From: an uncultured Nitrospiraceae bacterium
Lineage (GTDB): Bacteria > Nitrospirota > Thermodesulfovibrionia > Thermodesulfovibrionales > SM23-35
Reading direction: 5' to 3'
NCBI GenBank assembly: GCA_937138415.1
Contig: CAKZPA010000026.1
Span: 62,001 to 126,000 of the forward strand
Length of the DNA stretch: 64,000 nucleotides
The notes under the pieces were generated by a model. The model was not told the DNA's origin. It ran no database searches and saw only the letters and a list, made by a program, of their open reading frames with translations. Made by a program: the position numbers and the translations under genes. This document shows, in pieces, positions 27,570-38,543 of the stretch. Positions within the stretch are counted from its first letter, which is position 1; the number at the start of each line of letters is the position of its first letter.

Positions 27570-29093
27570 GTGATCAGCTACGCAGAACATATTCGACCGG
27601 AAGACCTTCCGAAGGTGCCTTTCGTCCTGAACGGTGTATCTTCGCGTTTCATCCGTGAGCAGAAGATCATCCCCCTCGAGTTCAAGAACAACGTCCTGAA
27701 AGTCGCCATGGCGAACCCGGAAAATGTCGTCGCAATCGACGCCCTGAGGGTCGCCACGGCCGCCGACATTGTCGTCTACGGATGCGACACAAAAGTCGTC
27801 GACGAATATCTTGCCCGTTTCTACGAGCAAGAGACGCAGAACATCAACAGGATCATAGAGGATCTCGGCGAAAAGGGAATCGAGTTCCTCCGCGAGGAAG
27901 AGGAAGACATCGGCCACCTGAAAGACCTCGCTTCCGAAGCGCCGATCATCCGACTCGTCAACATGTTCATCACGCGGGCTGTCGAGAGCAGGGCGAGCGA
28001 CATCCATATCGAACCTTTCGAAGACGAGTTGAAGGTGCGCTATCGCATCGACGGCGTTCTCCACGACATCGAAACGACACCCAAAAGGCTCCAGGCCGCG
28101 ATCGTATCGAGAATAAAAATCATGGCAAAACTGAATATAGCCGAACGGCGACTTCCGCAGGACGGCCGCATCAGGCTGCGGGTCGGCGAGAATGAACTGG
28201 ACTTGAGGGTGTCGACCATTCCGGTGCTCTACGGGGAGAGTGTCGTCATGCGGATACTGCGCAAAGAGGGGATCGTTATCGACCTCGATCTCCTCGGCTT
28301 CCCTCCGGATACCCTGAGACGCTTCAACCAGCTCATCTCGAAACCGAACGGTATCATTCTCGTCACGGGGCCGACGGGGAGCGGGAAGACGACGACGCTT
28401 TACGGAGCGCTCGATAAGATCAATTCCCCGGACAAAAAAATTATCACGGTTGAGGATCCGGTGGAATACCAATTGAAGGGGGTTAACCAGATACAGGTCA
28501 AGCCCCAGATCGGCCTGAACTTCGCCAATACACTCCGCCACATCGTCCGGCAGGATCCCGATATCATCATGATCGGCGAGATCAGGGATCTGGAGACGGC
28601 AGAGATCGCGATTCAGTCGTCCCTCACGGGCCACCTCGTCTTTTCGACCCTCCACACGAATGACGCCCCGAGCGCCCTCACGAGGCTCCTCGATATGGGC
28701 GTGGAAAACTTCCTCCTCTCGTCCACGATCCGCGGCATACTCGCCCAGCGTCTTGTGCGGGTTATTTGCCCCGCCTGCAAGGAAAAAGACAGTGCTCTCA
28801 CCGATAGCGAAGAATTGAAGCTGTTCGGCCTCCCCGAAGACCAGGTGCTCTATCATGGGCGAGGGTGCGCGCAGTGCGCCCAAACAGGGTTTTACGGCCG
28901 CACGGGAATCTTTGAACTCCTCGTCATCGACGATGACATCCGCAAACTCGTTCTGAAAAGTGCCGACGCGAACCAGATTCGGGACTCGGCACGACGTGCG
29001 GGCATGAAGACGCTCCTCGAAGACGGCGCGGAAAAAATCAAGGCGGGCATCACTACTCTGAGCGAAGTCCTCAGGGTGACGCAGGAGGCCTGA
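27570..29093 (+). CDS. gspE: Type II secretion ATPase GspE
   Basis: The cytoplasmic motor of type II secretion. Its 507 residues comprise an N-terminal N1-like domain, then the ATPase with Walker A GPTGSGKTTT near 266, the Asp-box around 330 (DIIMIGEIRDLETAE), the His-box STLHTNDAP, and a zinc knuckle of two CxxC pairs (CPAC near 400 and CAQC near 433). The tetra-Cys domain is shared by GspE and PilB; the following gspF-gspC order favours GspE. GTG start. gspF begins on its stop (TGATG). Confidence 0.95.
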   Translation: MISYAEHIRPEDLPKVPFVLNGVSSRFIREQKIIPLEFKNNVLKVAMANPENVVAIDALRVATAADIVVYGCDTKVVDEYLARFYEQETQNINRIIEDLGEKGIEFLREEEEDIGHLKDLASEAPIIRLVNMFITRAVESRASDIHIEPFEDELKVRYRIDGVLHDIETTPKRLQAAIVSRIKIMAKLNIAERRLPQDGRIRLRVGENELDLRVSTIPVLYGESVVMRILRKEGIVIDLDLLGFPPDTLRRFNQLISKPNGIILVTGPTGSGKTTTLYGALDKINSPDKKIITVEDPVEYQLKGVNQIQVKPQIGLNFANTLRHIVRQDPDIIMIGEIRDLETAEIAIQSSLTGHLVFSTLHTNDAPSALTRLLDMGVENFLLSSTIRGILAQRLVRVICPACKEKDSALTDSEELKLFGLPEDQVLYHGRGCAQCAQTGFYGRTGIFELLVIDDDIRKLVLKSADANQIRDSARRAGMKTLLEDGAEKIKAGITTLSEVLRVTQEA

Positions 29094-30286
29094 TGCCGGT
29101 CTTTTCGTACCGCGCGACGACGGTTCAGGGCGCGATCATAGAGGGCGTCATCGAAGCGGCCGACGAGCAGTCCGCCGTCGAGAGGCTAAAAAATACCGGT
29201 TACATCCCCCTCAGGATCGCTGCGCCGAGGGCGGAGAGGGGAAAGCGGTTCTCGCTGAGATCTTCCCGGAGCGATCTCCTCACGTTCACCACGGAACTAT
29301 CGGCTCTGCTCGGCGCGGGCCTTCCTCTCGACAGGAGCCTGAACATCCTTGCCGACATCTCCGAGAGCAGAGAGATGAAGAACGTCGTGCAGTCGGTGCT
29401 GAAATCGATCCGGGAAGGCAGTTCTTTTTCGGATGCCCTCCAGAAACACCCGACAATATTTCCGCGGTTGTACGTCAACATGATCCGTGCGGGCGAAGCG
29501 GGCGGCGTCCTCGATGTCGTCCTCGACAAGCTGAACGAGTTCCTGGAGTCATCCAAGGCGCTCAAAGACCACATCGTCTCTGTCATGATTTATCCTGTCA
29601 TCCTGATTCTCACGAGCGGCCTGTCGATCGCTGTCCTCCTCACGTACGTGTTGCCGAAATTTTCCGTCATCTTCGCCGAATTGGGCGGTGCCCTGCCGGT
29701 TCCCACCCAGATACTTCTCGCATTCAGCAACGCGCTTAGAACGTACTGGTGGATTGTTCTCGCTGCGATGGTCGCGCTCTGGGTGCTGTTGAACAACTAT
29801 AAGAAGACCGATTCCGGCAGGTACAACTGGGACAGGTTCAAGCTGAGAATGATGGGGGACGTGATCAGGAAACTCGAGACCGCGCGTTTCTGTAGGACAC
29901 TCGGAACGCTCCTCAAGAGCGGAGTGCCGCTCCTCCAGGCCCTCAACAACGCAAAGGATACGATCAGCAACCAGGTGATCGCTTCCTCTATCGACGCTGT
30001 GAGCGCAGGAGCAAAGGAGGGGAAAGGCATCGCGGCACCCTTAGCGGGCACAGGCGTCTTCCCGCCCCTCGCCCTCTCCATGATCAAGGTGGGAGAGGAG
30101 ACGGGCCAGCTCGATACCATGCTCCTGAAAGTCGCGATGACCTATGAAAAGAGCCTCAACGTCGCAATCAAGAGATTCGTGAGCCTTCTCGAGCCCGTGA
30201 TGATCCTGACCATGGGTCTCATCATTGCCGCCATCGTCATCTCGATCCTGATGGCAATATTCAGCATTATAGAACTCCCGTTTTAA
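29093..30286 (+). CDS. gspF: Type II secretion inner membrane platform protein GspF
   Basis: A 397-residue protein with two repeated cytoplasmic helical domains (T2SSF; GAGLPLDRSLNILADI near 80 and LKSGVPLLQALNNAKD near 275) and three membrane segments, near 170, 220 and the C-terminus. It links the GspE motor to the GspL/M platform. GEAGGVLDVVLDKL and GEETGQLDTMLLKV are typical. The ATG overlaps the gspE stop. A 104-base repeat-rich gap, not gspG, follows. Confidence 0.95.
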   Translation: MPVFSYRATTVQGAIIEGVIEAADEQSAVERLKNTGYIPLRIAAPRAERGKRFSLRSSRSDLLTFTTELSALLGAGLPLDRSLNILADISESREMKNVVQSVLKSIREGSSFSDALQKHPTIFPRLYVNMIRAGEAGGVLDVVLDKLNEFLESSKALKDHIVSVMIYPVILILTSGLSIAVLLTYVLPKFSVIFAELGGALPVPTQILLAFSNALRTYWWIVLAAMVALWVLLNNYKKTDSGRYNWDRFKLRMMGDVIRKLETARFCRTLGTLLKSGVPLLQALNNAKDTISNQVIASSIDAVSAGAKEGKGIAAPLAGTGVFPPLALSMIKVGEETGQLDTMLLKVAMTYEKSLNVAIKRFVSLLEPVMILTMGLIIAAIVISILMAIFSIIELPF

Positions 30287-30327
30287 TGTATGGCTTCGAA
30301 CTGCGATCACGTGCTCGAGTCGTTGTG

Positions 30328-30455
30328 CACTGTCATTCTGAGTCCGCCTGAGGCGGACGAAGAATCTCGGTTTCATGATGCGGTAAGAATATGATATTCT
30401 TCACTGATGTCATCCTGAAATCATCGGAAAGATCCTTCGCTGCGCTCAGCATGAC
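30328..30455. repeat. Palindromic repeat between gspF and gspH
   Basis: Two halves are visible. TGTCATTCTGAG begins at about 30329 and is followed by the hairpin GTCCGCC/GGCGGAC and AAGAATCTC; a palindrome AAGAATA...TATTCTT lies at 30386-30402. Then GTCATCCTGA (30409-30418) is inverted as TCAGCATGAC (30446-30455), enclosing GATCC and GCTGCGC. The last half matches the family seen at 25273-25365. It occupies the place where gspG is normally found. Confidence 0.65.
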
Positions 30456-30933
30456 GATTCGCCTGACGGGGTGTCGGCGGTACAGACCCACGTCCGGCGG
30501 ATCGGGCTTCATGCTCATCGAACTCATCATCGTCCTCTTCCTGATGGCGGTCATCCTCGGCCTTACCGCTCTCTTCTACGCGAACAGCCTCCCCGGCTAC
30601 CGGCTTAACGCAACCGCCCGGAACATCTCGACGACGATCAAACAGGCCCGCGCGTACGCCAAGATGTTGAACGAGCCGCAGGTCGTGACAATAGATATCG
30701 AGAACCGCACGTACGCCCTCGAAGGACGTCAAGCCAAAGAGATCCCCGTAGACATCGCGGTCAAAGTTGTCGACCCTGTGGAGGGGGACATTGTCGATGG
30801 GAAATATTCCTTCGTCGTCCACTCGACCGGGGGTGTCGAAGGCGGCATGATCGTTCTGTGGAACGCCAAGAAAATGGTCAGCATCCAGGTCGATCCGATC
30901 GTTGGCACCGTCGGGGTTCAGGAGAGATCGTGA
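30451..30933 (+). CDS. gspH: Minor pseudopilin GspH
   Basis: A type II secretion pseudopilin. The prepilin peptidase site is SGGSG/FMLIEL, with Glu at +5, followed by a hydrophobic helix and KQARAYAKMLNEPQVVTIDI, which fits GspH rather than GspG. From the ATG at 30451 the leader is 19 residues and the whole protein 160. That ATG lies inside a repeat arm (TCAGCATGAC). An ATG at 30391 would give a 39-residue leader partly encoded by the repeat. Neither has a good ribosome site. The gene ends in GTGA overlapping gspI. Confidence 0.85.
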   Translation: MTIRLTGCRRYRPTSGGSGFMLIELIIVLFLMAVILGLTALFYANSLPGYRLNATARNISTTIKQARAYAKMLNEPQVVTIDIENRTYALEGRQAKEIPVDIAVKVVDPVEGDIVDGKYSFVVHSTGGVEGGMIVLWNAKKMVSIQVDPIVGTVGVQERS

Positions 30934-31490
30934 AGCACGTCCATCACGCGCCCGGACATCCGACACGGCGATGTCGTTCTGCCTTCCCGGGGAAGGTCTT
31001 CCAAAAAATGCGTCTTTTTGCCGGACCCGGAGGTGGCGTCTCGACTTCCCCGCCGCGTTCGAAAAACGGGGAAAGGCGATGTCCTAGTTCCATTGCAGCC
31101 ATGCGCGCTTCCCTTGGGTTCACGCTGCTCGAAGTCCTCGTCGCGACGGCTCTCCTGGCGATAGCCGTCGCTGTTGTTCTCCAGTTGTTCTCCGCAAATC
31201 TGAGAGCGGTCAGCATATCGGAGGACTACGTTGTGGCAACGAAAAAAGCCGACGTCAAGATGAGGGAGATCCTCGACAGCGAAACCCTTTCCGAGACGTC
31301 GTTCAGCGAGGCGACGGGCGATGGGTATCGCATCGACGTCTCCGTTGCGGATGCCCTCCCGGAGCGAACGCAAAATCTCCCGGTCAAGCTTCTCGAGATC
31401 GACATGACGGTCACCTGGTCGAAAGGCAATCGGGAAAGGTCTCTCAAACTGAAAACGATGAAAGCGATCAGAAGAGAGCAAATCTCGTGA
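30930..31490 (+). CDS. gspI: Minor pseudopilin GspI
   Basis: The cleavage site ASLG/FTLLEV and the helix with Glu at +5 are clear, followed by a short GspI-like body (about 125 residues). A GTG at 30930 overlaps the gspH stop and has GGAGAG upstream, but then the leader would be about 62 residues, far longer than usual. An ATG at 31101 gives a classic 6-residue leader but has no ribosome site; a tiny ATG-TCC-TAG frame ends about 13 bases before it. The gene ends at the gspJ junction. The protein joins the tip complex with GspJ and GspK. Confidence 0.83.
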   Translation: MKHVHHAPGHPTRRCRSAFPGKVFQKMRLFAGPGGGVSTSPPRSKNGERRCPSSIAAMRASLGFTLLEVLVATALLAIAVAVVLQLFSANLRAVSISEDYVVATKKADVKMREILDSETLSETSFSEATGDGYRIDVSVADALPERTQNLPVKLLEIDMTVTWSKGNRERSLKLKTMKAIRREQIS

Positions 31491-31579
31491 TGCGTGACGG
31501 ATTGAAGGAAGGGCCTATCGACGACGGATTGCGGTCTCATCGCTTTACAGCCGCCGTGCTTCTCGACCGGGGAGGATGT

Positions 31580-32290
31580 GTGACCGGCGGGGATAGAAGA
31601 AAAGGACGGCACGAGAAAACGGAGAACCCGCGGGCGATGAGCGGGTTTACCCTCCTCGAAATTGTCATCTCGATTTCGCTCATCGGGATCATCGTCCTCA
31701 TCGTGGTGGGTGCCATGCGGCTGGGAACGAGGGCGGTGGAGTCGAGCGAAAAGAAAATCTCCTCTCTCGAACGGACGCGGTCTTCGCTGAGCATCATGGA
31801 TGCCCAGATACAGTCGTACGTGCCGCTCGTCTATATCGAAAACGGCGAAAAAAGGTATTACTTCCGGGGAGACCGCCAAACCCTGCAGTTCTCGACGAAC
31901 TATTCCATTTGGGGCGGCGAAAAGGGATACGTCATCACGACGTATGCCGTGAAAGCGCTCGACAACGGGAAACAGGCCATCTTCGCTTCGGAGACGGTGG
32001 CCGGCAGGCGGAACAGAACCGAGACGATGCTCACGAACCCGGCGGATCAGATATTTTTCGAATACTTCTCGAAAGACCCTACGGAAGAAACCGGCAGATG
32101 GATGGACCGGTGGACGGAGAACCTGAGCATCCAGGAGACCGACAAACCTGGAATCCCCGAGAAAATAAAAATTCATTTCGCCGAGGGAGCGCAGGAATTC
32201 TCTCTCGTCCTCCCCGTCCGGGTAAAAATGAGTGTGGCAGACCTGGCAGCCGCGGGCGGCTTCGAGGAAGATTTCATTCCGGAAGAGTAG
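31580..32290 (+). CDS. gspJ: Minor pseudopilin GspJ
   Basis: The site RAMSG/FTLLEI with Glu at +5 marks a pseudopilin; the body of about 210 residues and ERTRSSLSIMDAQIQSY fit GspJ. A GTG at 31580 has GGAGG five bases upstream and gives a 22-residue leader, so it is chosen. The frame opens at GTG/ATG 31487/31490 on the gspI stop, giving a 50-residue leader. ATG 31637 would give only MSG. The gene ends just before gspK and acts in the I-J-K tip. Confidence 0.84.
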   Translation: MTGGDRRKGRHEKTENPRAMSGFTLLEIVISISLIGIIVLIVVGAMRLGTRAVESSEKKISSLERTRSSLSIMDAQIQSYVPLVYIENGEKRYYFRGDRQTLQFSTNYSIWGGEKGYVITTYAVKALDNGKQAIFASETVAGRRNRTETMLTNPADQIFFEYFSKDPTEETGRWMDRWTENLSIQETDKPGIPEKIKIHFAEGAQEFSLVLPVRVKMSVADLAAAGGFEEDFIPEE

Positions 32291-32292
32291 CG

Positions 32293-33276
32293 ATGACCGA
32301 TGGGACGAGAATAACGTCACAAGCCGGCATCGCTCTCGTCATGGTTCTTTGGGTGCTCACGATTCTCACCGTTATCGTTTTCTCGTTCTCCTTCATGACG
32401 AGAACGGAAACCCTTTCGACCGCCTCCTTCAAAGGGGGATTGGAAAAGAAATTCATCGCCGAGGGCGCCATGGAGAGGGCTATCATGGAGCTCTTCTACC
32501 GGAACGTGTACAAAAACCAGACCGTCGAGTTCGAGGAGTTCGCGGTCTGGCAGGTTGACGGAACGCCGTACACGGGAACGCTCGGCAACGGCGCGTACAC
32601 CGTCCGCATCATCGACGATTCGGGGAAAGTGGACATCAACGCGGCCTCCGAGGTAGTATTAAAAAATCTTGTGCTGAATGCAGGAGTTTCGGACGAAGAA
32701 GCCGATACCATCGTCGATTCGATCATGGATTGGAAAGACCCCGATGATCTGCACAGGCTTCACGGGGCGGAAAGCGACTACTATCTTTCTCTCCAGAACC
32801 CTTACAAGGCAAAGAATGCCCGTTTCGACAGTTTGGAAGAACTCCTTCTCGTGAAAGGAGTCACGCCTGACATTCTCTACGGGACTCCCGAAAGGAAGGG
32901 ATTGATCGATCTCCTCACGGTGTACACGAAGAAGAACAGAATCAATATCAACGTCGCTCCGAGAGAAGTTCTCTTGGCAATACCAGGGATGACGCCGGAA
33001 CTGGCGGATAGCATCATTAGTTCCAGGCAGGCGGCCGCATCCGGCGGATCGATGAACATCAGAGAACTCGCGGGAGAGAATTACGGCATGATGTCGCGCT
33101 ACGTTACGACGGCGGGCTCCAATGTATTTTCGATTGACGTCGTGGCGCGGGAAGAGAATGAGAGGGGCGCGTACGGCATCAGGGCAACGGTCGTCTTGAT
33201 ACCGTCCACCGCATTTCCTGACCAACTTCCCTATAAATTCGTATACTACAAAAAACCGGTGGCGATGACGCAATGA
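32293..33276 (+). CDS. gspK: Pseudopilin tip protein GspK
   Basis: A 327-residue large pseudopilin. The start is ATG 32293, three bases after the gspJ stop, with GGAAGA upstream. The cleavage site is SQAG/IALVMVLW. The usual Glu at +5 is absent, as expected for GspK at the tip. A saposin-like helical insertion with DINAASEVVLKNL, DSIMDWKDPDD and ININVAPREVLLAIPGM is diagnostic. It overlaps gspL by ATGA. Confidence 0.92.
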   Translation: MTDGTRITSQAGIALVMVLWVLTILTVIVFSFSFMTRTETLSTASFKGGLEKKFIAEGAMERAIMELFYRNVYKNQTVEFEEFAVWQVDGTPYTGTLGNGAYTVRIIDDSGKVDINAASEVVLKNLVLNAGVSDEEADTIVDSIMDWKDPDDLHRLHGAESDYYLSLQNPYKAKNARFDSLEELLLVKGVTPDILYGTPERKGLIDLLTVYTKKNRININVAPREVLLAIPGMTPELADSIISSRQAAASGGSMNIRELAGENYGMMSRYVTTAGSNVFSIDVVAREENERGAYGIRATVVLIPSTAFPDQLPYKFVYYKKPVAMTQ

Positions 33277-34835
33277 ACGGAACGGCTATTATCAACAGAT
33301 TGTCGCTATGGGCGTCGACCTCTTCGTCGCGTCTGAAGAGCATGAGCGCCCCCCTTGGCCGTGTGCTCACCTTCAGCCTCGCCGATGATCTCATTTACCC
33401 CGCGAGGACCATCGCGGCGTCTCTCGACGGAGGGGCCATTTCGGTCGTCTACGGGAAGAGGCTGTTCTCTCGGGTGGCGATTCGAGGGGTACGGGAGTAT
33501 CCCTTCGACGGCAAGTATCCGCAGCCGGAGTTTCTCGCCTCGTCGATCGCCCTCGCTGTCAATGCGCTCGGGGCCCGCAAAGCACCGGTGACCCTGAGTA
33601 TTCCCAAAGCGTGGACGGTCATCACGACAGCGGAGTTTCCCCTCACCGTAAAGGAGAATCTCTCCGACGTCATCTCGTACGAACTCGACAGAATCACCCC
33701 TCTCACCTCGGCGAACGCATTCTTCGATTTCAGGGTTCTCGAAGAAAAGGAAGGAAAACTCTCGGTTCTCGTCGTCGCCGTGAGAGCGGATCTTGTCGAG
33801 CCGTATATCGACGCTCTCCGGGAAAAGGGGATTTCGGTCAGCAGACTCACGACGAACCTTTCGGGATTCGAGGTGCTCTCCCGTTTCATCGGATCGACGA
33901 GGGCGACGATTTTCCTCGACGTGAGCGCGAACGGATACGAGGGTGCCCTGTTCGACGGTACAGCGATCACGAACATCGTTGCGGGCAGTTTTCCCGCGAC
34001 GGACGAACGATTGTGCGCGGAGCGGTTGCGTCAGGAGATCGCGCCGCTCATCGACGAGGTGAAGAAGAGCGGACGGGATCCACGGTTCATGATACGGTTG
34101 CGCCAGACCTCGCCCGGTCTGAAGGAATCTCTCAAGGCACAAGTGCCGCACCCTATCATGTTCCTGGGAGAGACGGATATCAAAGTCAAATATCCTCCTC
34201 TGGAAAGAACCCCCCCCTATGCGGCGATCGGAGCAGTTCTCGAATCGCTGTGGCCGAGGGCACACGGCGTGAACTTGCTCTCGAAGGGCCTGCGGGAAGA
34301 GAGTAGCCCTCCGAAATTTTTCACCGTAATCCTCCTGCTCTGCATTCTCGGATTATGGATCGTCTATCTCTTTGCTCCCCTCAAGACGGAGGAGAAGAGG
34401 CTCGCCGAGATAGACCGTCAAATCGCTGCGAGGAAAGAGGACGTGAAGAAGGTCGAAGCGCTCAAAAAGGAGATTGAAGCGGTCGAGAATGAGGTCGGCT
34501 TAATCAATACGTTCAAGGTAAACCGGAGGATGACGCTCGATATACTCAAAGAGCTGACGGCGATTCTGCCGAAGAGCGCCTGGCTTTCGCGCGTGAGGGT
34601 ATCCGAGACAGCCGTCGAACTCGAAGGGTATGCGTCGGCGGCAACGGGGTTGTTGTCGAAGCTGGAGGCGTCACCTTTCTTCAGAAAGGTCGAGTTTTCG
34701 TCGCCGACGTTCAGAGATACGAGGATGAACGCTGACCGGTTCAACATAAAGATGGAGATAGAGGGGGTGAACGTCGAAATATTCAAGGCCAAGGAGGAGG
34801 GAGAGGAGTTCGATGAAGCAGCTGAGGAAGAATAG
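33273..34835 (+). CDS. gspL: GspL-like platform protein (PilM-PilN type)
   Basis: A 520-residue protein. The cytoplasmic N-terminal part (about 30-330) has an actin-like fold of the PilM/GspL type (VTLSIPKAWTVITTAEFP, ISYELDRITPLT). A membrane segment lies near 349-370, followed by a coiled coil (about 375-415) and a PilN-like ferredoxin fold (ILPKSAWLSRVRVSE). It therefore looks like PilM and PilN in one chain, which is the GspL plan. It recruits the GspE ATPase. gspM overlaps its end by 23 bases. Confidence 0.87.
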   Translation: MNGTAIINRLSLWASTSSSRLKSMSAPLGRVLTFSLADDLIYPARTIAASLDGGAISVVYGKRLFSRVAIRGVREYPFDGKYPQPEFLASSIALAVNALGARKAPVTLSIPKAWTVITTAEFPLTVKENLSDVISYELDRITPLTSANAFFDFRVLEEKEGKLSVLVVAVRADLVEPYIDALREKGISVSRLTTNLSGFEVLSRFIGSTRATIFLDVSANGYEGALFDGTAITNIVAGSFPATDERLCAERLRQEIAPLIDEVKKSGRDPRFMIRLRQTSPGLKESLKAQVPHPIMFLGETDIKVKYPPLERTPPYAAIGAVLESLWPRAHGVNLLSKGLREESSPPKFFTVILLLCILGLWIVYLFAPLKTEEKRLAEIDRQIAARKEDVKKVEALKKEIEAVENEVGLINTFKVNRRMTLDILKELTAILPKSAWLSRVRVSETAVELEGYASAATGLLSKLEASPFFRKVEFSSPTFRDTRMNADRFNIKMEIEGVNVEIFKAKEEGEEFDEAAEEE

Positions 34836-35373
34836 GACGTTGATGCTCACGATTCCCCTCGCGCTCATCCTTTCGGGGTATCTATTCTACGAGTACGTCT
34901 ATGTGAAGGTGAAGTCGGATATTGCTTCCGTCAAAGAGAGCCAGGAAATCAAGACAAGGACGCTCGAAAAATATATGGCCCTGCTCGCGGAAAAACCGGA
35001 GATCGAAAGCAGACTGGCGTCCCTCAAAGAACTGAGGAAGGCCGAAGAAGTGAAAATGATCGCGGGGGAGACGCTCTCCCTGGCTTCCGCTTCGCTCCAG
35101 GATGTGGTGAAGGATATCATTACGCGGAGCGGCGGGACGATATCGAGTCAGCGTGTCGGGAAACCCGACGATCTCGGCAAGTTCAAGGTCATCACGGTGA
35201 GCATGGATACGATTCTGCCGGATCCGAGAGCCCTCCGAGACATCCTGTACGCCGTCGAGACCCAGACCCCGTACCTCGTCGTCAAAGAGCTCGATGCCCG
35301 AATCAGGAATTACAAGGATCCGCGCGATCAGGTCGTAAAAATCGACGTCTCGGCCCTGACGACCAGCAGGTGA
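34813..35373 (+). CDS. gspM: GspM/PilO-like platform protein
   Basis: A 186-residue bitopic protein with one N-terminal membrane segment (LMLTIPLALILSGYLFY), a short coiled coil (about 40-80) and a periplasmic ferredoxin-like domain resembling the GspM_b/PilO group. It overlaps gspL by 23 bases, with GGAGGGAGAGGAG just before the ATG, and partners GspL in the inner membrane. Sequence similarity in this family is low; position carries much of the call. Confidence 0.82.
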   Translation: MKQLRKNRTLMLTIPLALILSGYLFYEYVYVKVKSDIASVKESQEIKTRTLEKYMALLAEKPEIESRLASLKELRKAEEVKMIAGETLSLASASLQDVVKDIITRSGGTISSQRVGKPDDLGKFKVITVSMDTILPDPRALRDILYAVETQTPYLVVKELDARIRNYKDPRDQVVKIDVSALTTSR

Positions 35374-35459: not shown

Positions 35460-36083
35460 GTGATCAAAAAAATTCTCCGTAACATCAACATCCTGAACAT
35501 TGTCCTGATCGGAGCGGTCATCGCGTTTGCCGTCGACGGTGTTCTGCCGACACTGAGGATCGGGGTGACGTATTCTCTCCCCTCCGCGGCAAAAGACGAA
35601 CACATCGTCGAGAAGGAACCGGTGGAGCCCCGTTTCCCGTCCGCCATGGAGTACGCTGCCATAGTGGACGAAAATCTCTTCCATCCGGAGAGGCGGATAC
35701 CACCGGAAAAGAAAGCTGAAGCCCCTCTGCCCAAGCCCGAATTCGTCCTCTACGGCACGATGATCTCGGACGACCTGAGCCTCGCTTATGTCGAGGATCT
35801 GAAAGCGCCGCGGAACACGCCGGGACGGGGTAAACGGCAGGTCGCCCTGAAGAAAGGCGACTCTATGAGCGGCTTTGTCTTGAAAGAAATCCAGAGCGAT
35901 AAGATTGTCATGGTGCGCGGAGAAGAGAGATTGGTCGTCGCCATAAACGATCCTGAAAAATCGAAGTCGAGAGAGATTGCACCGGCGCCTCAGGCACAAC
36001 ACCAGATATCTCCTCCTCCTTCCCCGACACCTGCGAGACCGAGGAGAGAGCCCCGCGGGGTAGCACCCGCCGTCCAGCCGTGA
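35460..36083 (+). CDS. gspC: GspC-like inner membrane protein
   Basis: A 207-residue protein with an N-terminal membrane anchor (NILNIVLIGAVIAFAVDGVL) and a periplasmic homology-region-like domain around 85-160 (VLYGTMISDDLSLAYVED, KKGDSMSGFVLKEIQSDKIVM). A Pro-rich tail follows (about 170-207). This fits GspC, which docks the platform to the GspD secretin; no PDZ domain is seen. The start is GTG 35460 with AGGA upstream. It is the last plus-strand gene and faces gspD. Confidence 0.8.
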   Translation: MIKKILRNINILNIVLIGAVIAFAVDGVLPTLRIGVTYSLPSAAKDEHIVEKEPVEPRFPSAMEYAAIVDENLFHPERRIPPEKKAEAPLPKPEFVLYGTMISDDLSLAYVEDLKAPRNTPGRGKRQVALKKGDSMSGFVLKEIQSDKIVMVRGEERLVVAINDPEKSKSREIAPAPQAQHQISPPPSPTPARPRREPRGVAPAVQP

Positions 36084-36197: not shown

Positions 36198-38201
36198 CTA
36201 GAGGTCTTTCACGAACAAACCTTTGTCGATGCTTTCATCGACGCTTTCCATTCTCTTCAGATAGTCCGTCGTGACATTCCTCGCTTCTTCCTGGCTCCTG
36301 ATCACATGCGGTGTCAGCAGAATGACGAGTTCTCTCCTTTCATACTTATCCGTGGAGGCGCCGAAGAGATATCCCAAAAGTGGGATCTTGCTCAGAAAGG
36401 GGATGCCTTCCTTCGCTTTCGACGTCAGTTCCTGGATGAGTCCGCCGATAACGATCGTCTGCCCGTTTTGCGCAACGAGGTTCGTCGTCGCTTCACGTTT
36501 GCTGATGACCACCTGGTCCGAGTCGAAGATCTTCTGGATCGAATAGGTCGAGACCTCCTGGGAAAGTTCAATCGTCACGAGGCCGCCCTCGTTAATCTGC
36601 GGCTTGACATTAAGGATAACGCCGGTATCTTTGTACTGGATCGTCCTCTGGATCTGCGTCGTGCCGGAAATATTCGTCTCGGATGTCGCTATCGGTACCT
36701 GGTCGCCGATCTGGATTCTCGCTTCGCGGTTATCCAAGACGAGAATGTGAGGAGAAGCGAGCACCCTCGCGCGAGAATCCTGCGCAAGCGCTTCGAGGCG
36801 AGCCCGCACGATACCGGCCGAATCGGTCGCGAGAAAAGTGAATCCCGAGCCGGAAAGCGTCGCGGCATCCTTGCCGTTCCCCAAAACGGACGGTCTCTGG
36901 CCCATCTGGCCATCAAGGTTCAACGTATTGTCAAAAGGCTTCAATGATACATTGAGATCCGTTTTAAGCGACCATGCGAGCCCGAAACTAAGATCATTTG
37001 TCAATTTTATTTCAGCGACGAGTGCTTCGATCACGACTTGCCTCGGGAGGACATCAAGTTTCTTTATTGTCTCCTCGATAAATGAATAGTCGGCCGGCGT
37101 CGCGAGAATAATGAGCGAGTTCGTGATCTCATCGGCGAATACCTTCGTCTCCGGCGAGACGAACTTCCCTCCTCCGGTCACCGTTGCCGCTGCCCCTGTT
37201 CTCGGCTCGGCGGTTGGCGCCGCCGGTTGCGCGGCGGCAGCCCCCGTTTGGGCAGTTCTTGTCGGTGTCGGTCTCGGCGTCGGTGCCGGCGTCGGCGCCG
37301 TCGTCGTCGCGGCCCCACTTCCCGAGAATATTGACTGCATCAGCGACGCGATGTGGGTCGCTTTGCTGTTTTGTAGGGGGTAGACGAAAATTTTGAGCCT
37401 TGTCACCGCGAACATGTCGTCGAAGATCTGAATCCATTTCTTGATGTACGACAACTGTTCGTGGGACGTCGCAACCACGACGAGCGAGTTCAGTCTGTAG
37501 ATGGGCAGGATTCTGACCGTCCCCCCTTTCAGGTGCAGGCCCAGCGCATTCTCGATATCGGGCATTGCCTCCCTCAGCTCGAGATTCTTGAAATTGACCA
37601 TATCGATGGCGACTTTTTCGGGCTCCTTCCCGATCTGCGCATAGACGAGTTCACGCGGAACATCGGTGAGCGGGACGATCCGATAGAGGCCTGCCTCTTC
37701 CACAAATCCGACCCCGTTCATCCGAAAGACAATCTCCATGATCGCGAGCACATCGTCCTTCGGCACAGGCGTGATCGTGCGGAAATTCACCCGTCCCTTC
37801 ACCTGAGGATCCACGATGTAGTTCACCTTCAAGACATCGGCGAAGATTGTCTGGATCACTTCGTAAATGTCGGCATCGTCGAAAAAGAAGCTGACGGTCG
37901 GGGCCGGTTTGGGCGGAGGCGGAGGAGGAGAGGAAACCAGAGGAGGCGGTGGCGGAGCCACGGGTGGCGTCACAGGAGGAATCTGTGGCGGTTTTGCGGT
38001 CTCCGGAGACGCTGCCTGCTGCATCACACTCGAAGGTGGAAGCGGACCAGGAGCTTCCGGCGCAGTCGCCTCTTCCGCGTGTTCTGTCTCAGGGACAGAT
38101 TCATCCGCGGATGCGGAATCCTGAGCGAAAGACTGGGTTACCAGGCTTAACGAGAAAAGGAGGATGAACAGGAGGGAGAGGATACTTTTCAACCGTCGCA
38201 A
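36198..38201 (-). CDS. gspD: Type II secretion outer membrane secretin GspD
   Basis: Forms the outer-membrane channel. The protein has a signal peptide (SILSLLFILLFSLSLVTQSFA). A Pro-rich linker of about 70 residues follows. N0-N1-N2 domains run from about residue 100 (FFFDDADIYEVIQTIF), with a Thr/Pro/Ala-rich spacer near 310-345. The secretin domain ends with VIGGLIQELTSKAKEGIPFLSKIPLLGYLFG. The frame opens at a TTG at 38237 without a ribosome site; TTG 38201 follows GGAGA and starts LRRLKSIL, so it is preferred. The gene is on the opposite strand to gspE-C and has its own promoter. Confidence 0.93.
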   Translation of the reverse strand: MRRLKSILSLLFILLFSLSLVTQSFAQDSASADESVPETEHAEEATAPEAPGPLPPSSVMQQAASPETAKPPQIPPVTPPVAPPPPPLVSSPPPPPPKPAPTVSFFFDDADIYEVIQTIFADVLKVNYIVDPQVKGRVNFRTITPVPKDDVLAIMEIVFRMNGVGFVEEAGLYRIVPLTDVPRELVYAQIGKEPEKVAIDMVNFKNLELREAMPDIENALGLHLKGGTVRILPIYRLNSLVVVATSHEQLSYIKKWIQIFDDMFAVTRLKIFVYPLQNSKATHIASLMQSIFSGSGAATTTAPTPAPTPRPTPTRTAQTGAAAAQPAAPTAEPRTGAAATVTGGGKFVSPETKVFADEITNSLIILATPADYSFIEETIKKLDVLPRQVVIEALVAEIKLTNDLSFGLAWSLKTDLNVSLKPFDNTLNLDGQMGQRPSVLGNGKDAATLSGSGFTFLATDSAGIVRARLEALAQDSRARVLASPHILVLDNREARIQIGDQVPIATSETNISGTTQIQRTIQYKDTGVILNVKPQINEGGLVTIELSQEVSTYSIQKIFDSDQVVISKREATTNLVAQNGQTIVIGGLIQELTSKAKEGIPFLSKIPLLGYLFGASTDKYERRELVILLTPHVIRSQEEARNVTTDYLKRMESVDESIDKGLFVKDL

Positions 38202-38543
38202 AGAGGTTCTCCGCTCGTCGCTGTGGGTATGCTCCAATAGTGGCTATGCACAGTGGTTTTCGATAGAAACAGACCGTTCTGAGGCTGGAAGAGAAGGACC
38301 TGCACGCGCTGTTTCGGTTTTTCCGGTGAACGTTTTTGCATATGAAGAAATTACTATGTAACAATAATGAATAATTGGCATGTTGTCAAGTAGAGCGTCC
38401 CTTCTTCACATTTTTTTCATGACGTATGCATCGCTGCAAAAAAGATCGGTCGATTGCGAAGCTCGACGGAAGGCCGGTGATGCGGGCTTGCGCTCTTCGA
38501 TGTCTCGTGCCATAATGAGTCGTTTTTCGCTCGAGTCTCTCGA
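38202..38543. other. Intergenic region between gspD and gatA
   Basis: About 340 bases between two divergent genes. It holds the gspD promoter (38361-38389), a stretch rich in A and T (38335-38390) and no gatC, which normally precedes gatA. A short open frame on either strand (60-87 codons) has no family likeness and no ribosome site. No plus-strand promoter is clear. Confidence 0.55.
38361..38389 (-). promoter_or_regulatory. Promoter for gspD
   Basis: On the minus strand TTGACA (38389-38384), 17 bases, then TATTGT (38366-38361). The RNA would carry a leader of about 150 bases before the TTG start. The site lies in an AT-rich patch. Confidence 0.6.

Follow-up and report, generated by a model that had tools for sequence, protein, structure and literature searches.

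The type II secretion system (T2SS) operon described here lacks a gene for the major pseudopilin, GspG, and comparison with the rest of its genome and with related genomes indicates that this gene is unlinked. It is most likely an orphan gspG on another contig, which is probably all that is left of a second T2SS cluster, and the system as a whole is probably complete in gene content. The window (the whole 64 kb stretch of DNA analysed) is G000:C26:62001-126000, that is, part of contig C26 of an assembly of 2.11 Mb in 57 contigs whose closest named relatives are Nitrospirota MAGs, some of them labelled Thermodesulfovibrionales.

The operon and its gspF-gspH junction

Using the frame list together with Pfam and NCBIfam models, we found the T2SS genes in the order gspE-F-H-I-J-K-L-M-C on the positive strand, with gspD convergent:

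27570-29093, + strand: gspE, T2SS ATPase (NCBIfam TIGR02533, 683 bits, above cut-off)
29093-30286, + strand: gspF, inner-membrane platform (TIGR02120, 400 bits, just below the cut-off of 424; Pfam T2SSF)
30287-30450, no strand: F-H spacer, without gspG or a gspG remnant (window searches)
30331-30455, no strand: palindromic intergenic element with inverted ends GTCATTCTGAG/GTCATGCTGAG, one copy in the genome
30451-30933, + strand: gspH, minor pseudopilin (XpsH NF047827, E 3e-13; GspH TIGR01708, E 5e-8; both below cut-off)
31101-31490, + strand: gspI, minor pseudopilin (XpsI, E 1e-10; GspI, E 2e-8)
31637-32290, + strand: gspJ, minor pseudopilin (PRK08808, E 8e-6; position and conservation)
32287-33276, + strand: gspK, minor pseudopilin (NF037980, 97 bits; Pfam T2SSK, above cut-off)
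33273-34835, + strand: gspL-like, with PilM/PilN domains (Pfam PilN, PilM_2)
34813-35373, + strand: gspM (NF040576, above cut-off)
35460-36083, + strand: gspC-like (weak matches to NF041515/NF041616, E about 1e-5)
36198-38237, - strand: gspD, secretin (TIGR02517, 397 bits, above the cut-off of 351)

The operon has the GspE ATPase and GspF platform of a T2SS (TIGR02533, TIGR02120 and Pfam T2SSF) and a GspD-type secretin (TIGR02517). Pseudopilins H, I, J and K are present, each with its best matches to its own models and below the curated NCBIfam cut-offs, as are GspL, GspM and GspC, with GspL recognised by its domains and GspC by weak matches alone. All of these frames are open. The one component absent from the operon is GspG, which is encoded elsewhere in the genome; its presence inside a T2SS operon is a usual trait but not a strictly defining one. 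We note that the gspH-gspI (30934-31100) and gspI-gspJ (31491-31636) spacers, at about 150 bases each, are unusually long for an operon and have a repeat-rich look.

The gspF frame stops at 30286 and the next gene, reading to 30933, is gspH. Searches of the 64 kb window by tblastn with 63 GspG sequences and by profile in all six frames detected no GspG-like frame and no gspG remnant, either in the F-H spacer or in the rest of the window. The best matches in these searches fell on the N-terminal, pilin-type parts of gspH, gspI and gspJ (E >= 0.009), and contig C26 gave no match to Pfam T2SSG. That gspH might be a disguised GspG was considered and rejected, since it matches GspH and XpsH models and has no T2SSG match. 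The preliminary description of this DNA, in which gspG was said to be missing between gspF and gspH and the gene that follows was said to fit GspH, is borne out on both points.

The same junction is found in relatives. At all 44 loci examined from named genomes, gspF and gspH are consecutive genes without an intervening gspG, and the arrangement is the same in further relatives in which both genes are readable. The spacers are short and repeat-free in G003, G005, G009, G011 and G018, several of them spanning a few tens of bases, and those of G008 and G019 hold other palindromes. Judged from these junctions, the gap is old, and the operon family never has gspG at this position. The operon family also occurs, at a GspF identity of 64-70%, in genomes labelled Syntrophorhabdus or Deltaproteobacteria (L137, L140, L143, L146, L147, L153 and L156), which suggests transfer between phyla.

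The palindromic repeat DNA that had been reported at the junction could be delimited as a unit of about 125 bp (30331-30455), with palindrome arms at 30335-30349 and 30351-30365, and its region folds better than shuffled sequences (z -2.4). A single copy, plus one 19-base match, is present in the 2.1 Mb assembly, and a role as a genome-wide repeat driving deletion was rejected on this ground. Relatives of its motif GTCATTCTGAG..GAAGAATCT occur in 19 of the 61 genomes searched (G000 counted) and are multi-copy in some related genomes; the many copies per genome that characterise REP/BIME-like elements are not found in G000. A literature search on GTCATTCTGAG repeats returned nothing relevant. 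Because the F-H spacers of relatives vary, being repeat-free or holding other palindromes, yet all lack gspG, we regard the repeats as secondary insertions, the element having entered later, and incidentally, a spacer already without gspG. Both in-frame ATG candidates for gspH in the stretch 30391-30520 (30391 and 30451) fall within the element, and gspH in relatives begins a few codons before GFTLLE. The likely start is the ATG at 30451, supplied by the right end of the element, which seems to have given gspH its start codon and a longer leader.

An orphan gspG on another contig

Two true gspG genes, both full-length matches above the Pfam T2SSG cut-off, are present in the genome, on contigs C23 and C11; two more T2SSG matches, on C34, are partial and are embedded in frames 452 and 530 aa long. 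The C23 gene sits within a second, complete T2SS in the canonical order C-D-E-F-G-H-I-J-K-L-M, with its own gspF. The C11 gene (G000:C11:72666-73097) is an intact orphan of 144 aa, preceded by a GAGGAGG ribosome site. Its product scores 161.5 bits against TIGR01710 (cut-off 88.85) and 136.5 bits against Pfam T2SSG, retains the GFTLVE prepilin cleavage site, YP, DPWG and the C-terminal DG..GG region (DGSPGG), and aligns with the solved GspG chains 5wda and 3gn9 with the C-terminal putative calcium-site region kept. Purifying selection on the orphan is strong: pN/pS is 0.01-0.20 overall, the two closest pairs giving 0.01 and 0.03 and pairs with saturated synonymous sites reaching 0.20. Divergent radC-purH lies upstream, two PilA-type genes are nearby, and a HepT/MntA toxin-antitoxin pair (L006:7814-8657) is directly downstream; this pair was not detected beside gspG in the relatives examined.

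The genome holds three F-type platforms only, those of the window, C23 and C33, the last presumably of the type IV pilus kind. The window operon is therefore the sole T2SS without its own GspG and, the C23 GspG having its own machine, the orphan is the sole GspG without one.

Gene order in relatives links this type of GspG to this machine, because C11-type gspG adjoins gspE or gspD of the same operon family. These C11-type genes (59-87% identical) immediately precede gspE in G022, G068, G078, G079, G103 and G105, with two such operons in G078. In G081-G085 they adjoin gspD, and in Syntrophorhabdus-type genomes they stand ahead of gspD-E-F-H (G-D-E-F-H order). Among the 176 genomes of the order, 62 carry the operon together with a C11-type gspG, 11 carry the operon without it, 39 carry that gspG without the operon and 64 carry neither. 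The p-value of this association (Fisher p 2.6e-10, no kinship correction) overstates it because related genomes are not independent. Within the window's family the orphan is found at radC in 10 of 10 genomes that hold both the operon and a readable radC junction. In G006, G010 and G012 the operon is missing, and the orphan is missing from their assembled radC loci as well. The operon-positive exceptions (G003, G009, G015 and G019) have no assembled radC-gspG junction, and G017, of the same genus as G007, has the orphan and no operon in a 91% assembly.

From this pairing of genes we infer that the orphan GspG works in the window machine. It would have an expression unit of its own and, after cleavage by a shared prepilin peptidase, would be assembled by GspE, F, L and M together with GspH, I, J and K.

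Origin of the orphan and alternative readings

The radC-purH/purD neighbourhood is a recurrent site for pilin and T2SS genes, occupied by a gspF-G-H-I-J cluster, a lone gspG or pilA depending on lineage (L195-L198, L178, L209-L215). Such a cluster lies next to purH in G004, a member of the window's family, and at radC/purD in G042, G150, G153, G154, G160, G162 and G165 of family f13, some of these clusters being cut by contig ends. At the conserved radC-purH locus of ten genomes of the window's family, gspG alone remains of F-G-H-I-J, and we infer that the orphan is the lone survivor of a cluster that would once have stood there. In a GspG tree the ten orphans group with the gspG genes of F-G-H-I-J clusters (G004, f8 and f2) on an open branch (83/83), and the operon-linked gspG genes form a separate group with other orphans. 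Because an AU test did not reject placement of the orphans with operon-linked gspG (p 0.215), the single-survivor history rests mainly on synteny. In nearly every f13 genome examined, the only C11-type gspG found sits in the F-G-H-I-J cluster, so that one GspG may serve two platforms. A tentative history, which we place a little short of probable, is that this T2SS lost its own gspG and took over the GspG of a second, paralogous T2SS cluster. That cluster would then have been reduced to gspG in the window's family, and in f13 a single GspG may still be serving both platforms.

Other sources of the major pseudopilin are less likely. The window T2SS might borrow the C23 GspG, leaving the orphan to serve something else, such as the adjacent type IV pilus genes: the C23 gene encodes a full GspG that shares 50% identity with the orphan, the orphan adjoins PilA-type genes, and G009 has the operon and only a C23-type GspG in its assembly. 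We consider this unlikely, as G006 and G010 keep a C23-type GspG yet have neither operon nor orphan, the gspG linked to this operon in other lineages is of the C11 and not the C23 type, and G009 gives no radC match at all, such that the locus may be unassembled. Less probable still is a machine that runs without any GspG, its main subunit being GspH or a PilA-type pilin. Such a machine is suggested by two near-complete assemblies that carry the operon, G003 (96% complete; L052/L087), where no GspG of whatever type can be recognised, and G067 (L228), in which no C11-type GspG candidate was found. Both are fragmented MAGs, however, G003 has no assembled orthologous radC locus, and every operon-bearing genome of the window's family in which that locus is readable has the orphan.

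The preliminary description had proposed that gspG may have been lost by recombination between repeats, or moved, and that a T2SS without GspG would be non-functional or highly divergent. A recent loss of this kind, leaving a dead or decaying system, would accord with the palindromic element that fills the F-H spacer. We regard it as extremely improbable, since all relatives examined share the gspG-less junction, several of them with spacers that hold no repeats and measure a few tens of bases, the other T2SS frames of the window are open, and the element is single-copy in the genome. The description had itself named a gspG elsewhere in the genome, and the same gap in relatives, as findings that would speak against its reading. 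The genome search and the junction comparison it proposed yielded both, with the two gspG genes on C23 and C11 and a common gap accompanied in most relatives by a gspG elsewhere. Relocation thus stands, and neither loss by recombination nor a non-functional system has support.

Comparison with known systems

Taken together, these data describe ordinary biology with an interesting evolutionary twist. In the canonical T2SS (of the Gsp/Xcp/Eps/Pul type) the genes run gspC-D-E-F-G-H-I-J-K-L-M, an order followed by the C23 system of the same genome. The window operon has the same components and differs in the position of gspG, which in its family precedes gspE or gspD, adjoins gspD or is unlinked, and never stands between gspF and gspH. 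In this Nitrospirota order and in Syntrophorhabdus-type genomes gspG is regularly outside the operon's pilin block, and its absence from the operon does not justify calling a T2SS incomplete. The takeover, if true, would be a natural case of one secretion machine adopting the main filament subunit of another and would show how specific a platform is for its pseudopilin.

There is precedent for unlinked T2SS genes, since the T2SS of Acinetobacter is functional although scattered over five loci, with a shared prepilin peptidase (PMC4713064). The window system resembles it in having an unlinked gene and would likewise rely on a shared prepilin peptidase. It differs in that gspF and gspG of Acinetobacter were cloned together as a gspFG locus (PMC4713064), whereas here gspG alone is separated from an otherwise compact operon. 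In the distance between the major pilin gene and the machine genes the window T2SS is also reminiscent of type IVa pilus loci, where pilins often lie apart from machine genes (PMC6668835). We found no prior report in the open-access literature of an operon family that omits only the major pseudopilin. According to the type IV filament survey cited above (PMC6668835), T2SS pilin genes occupy a central position in their locus; in the window operon family, by contrast, the major pseudopilin alone is consistently omitted from the pilin block.
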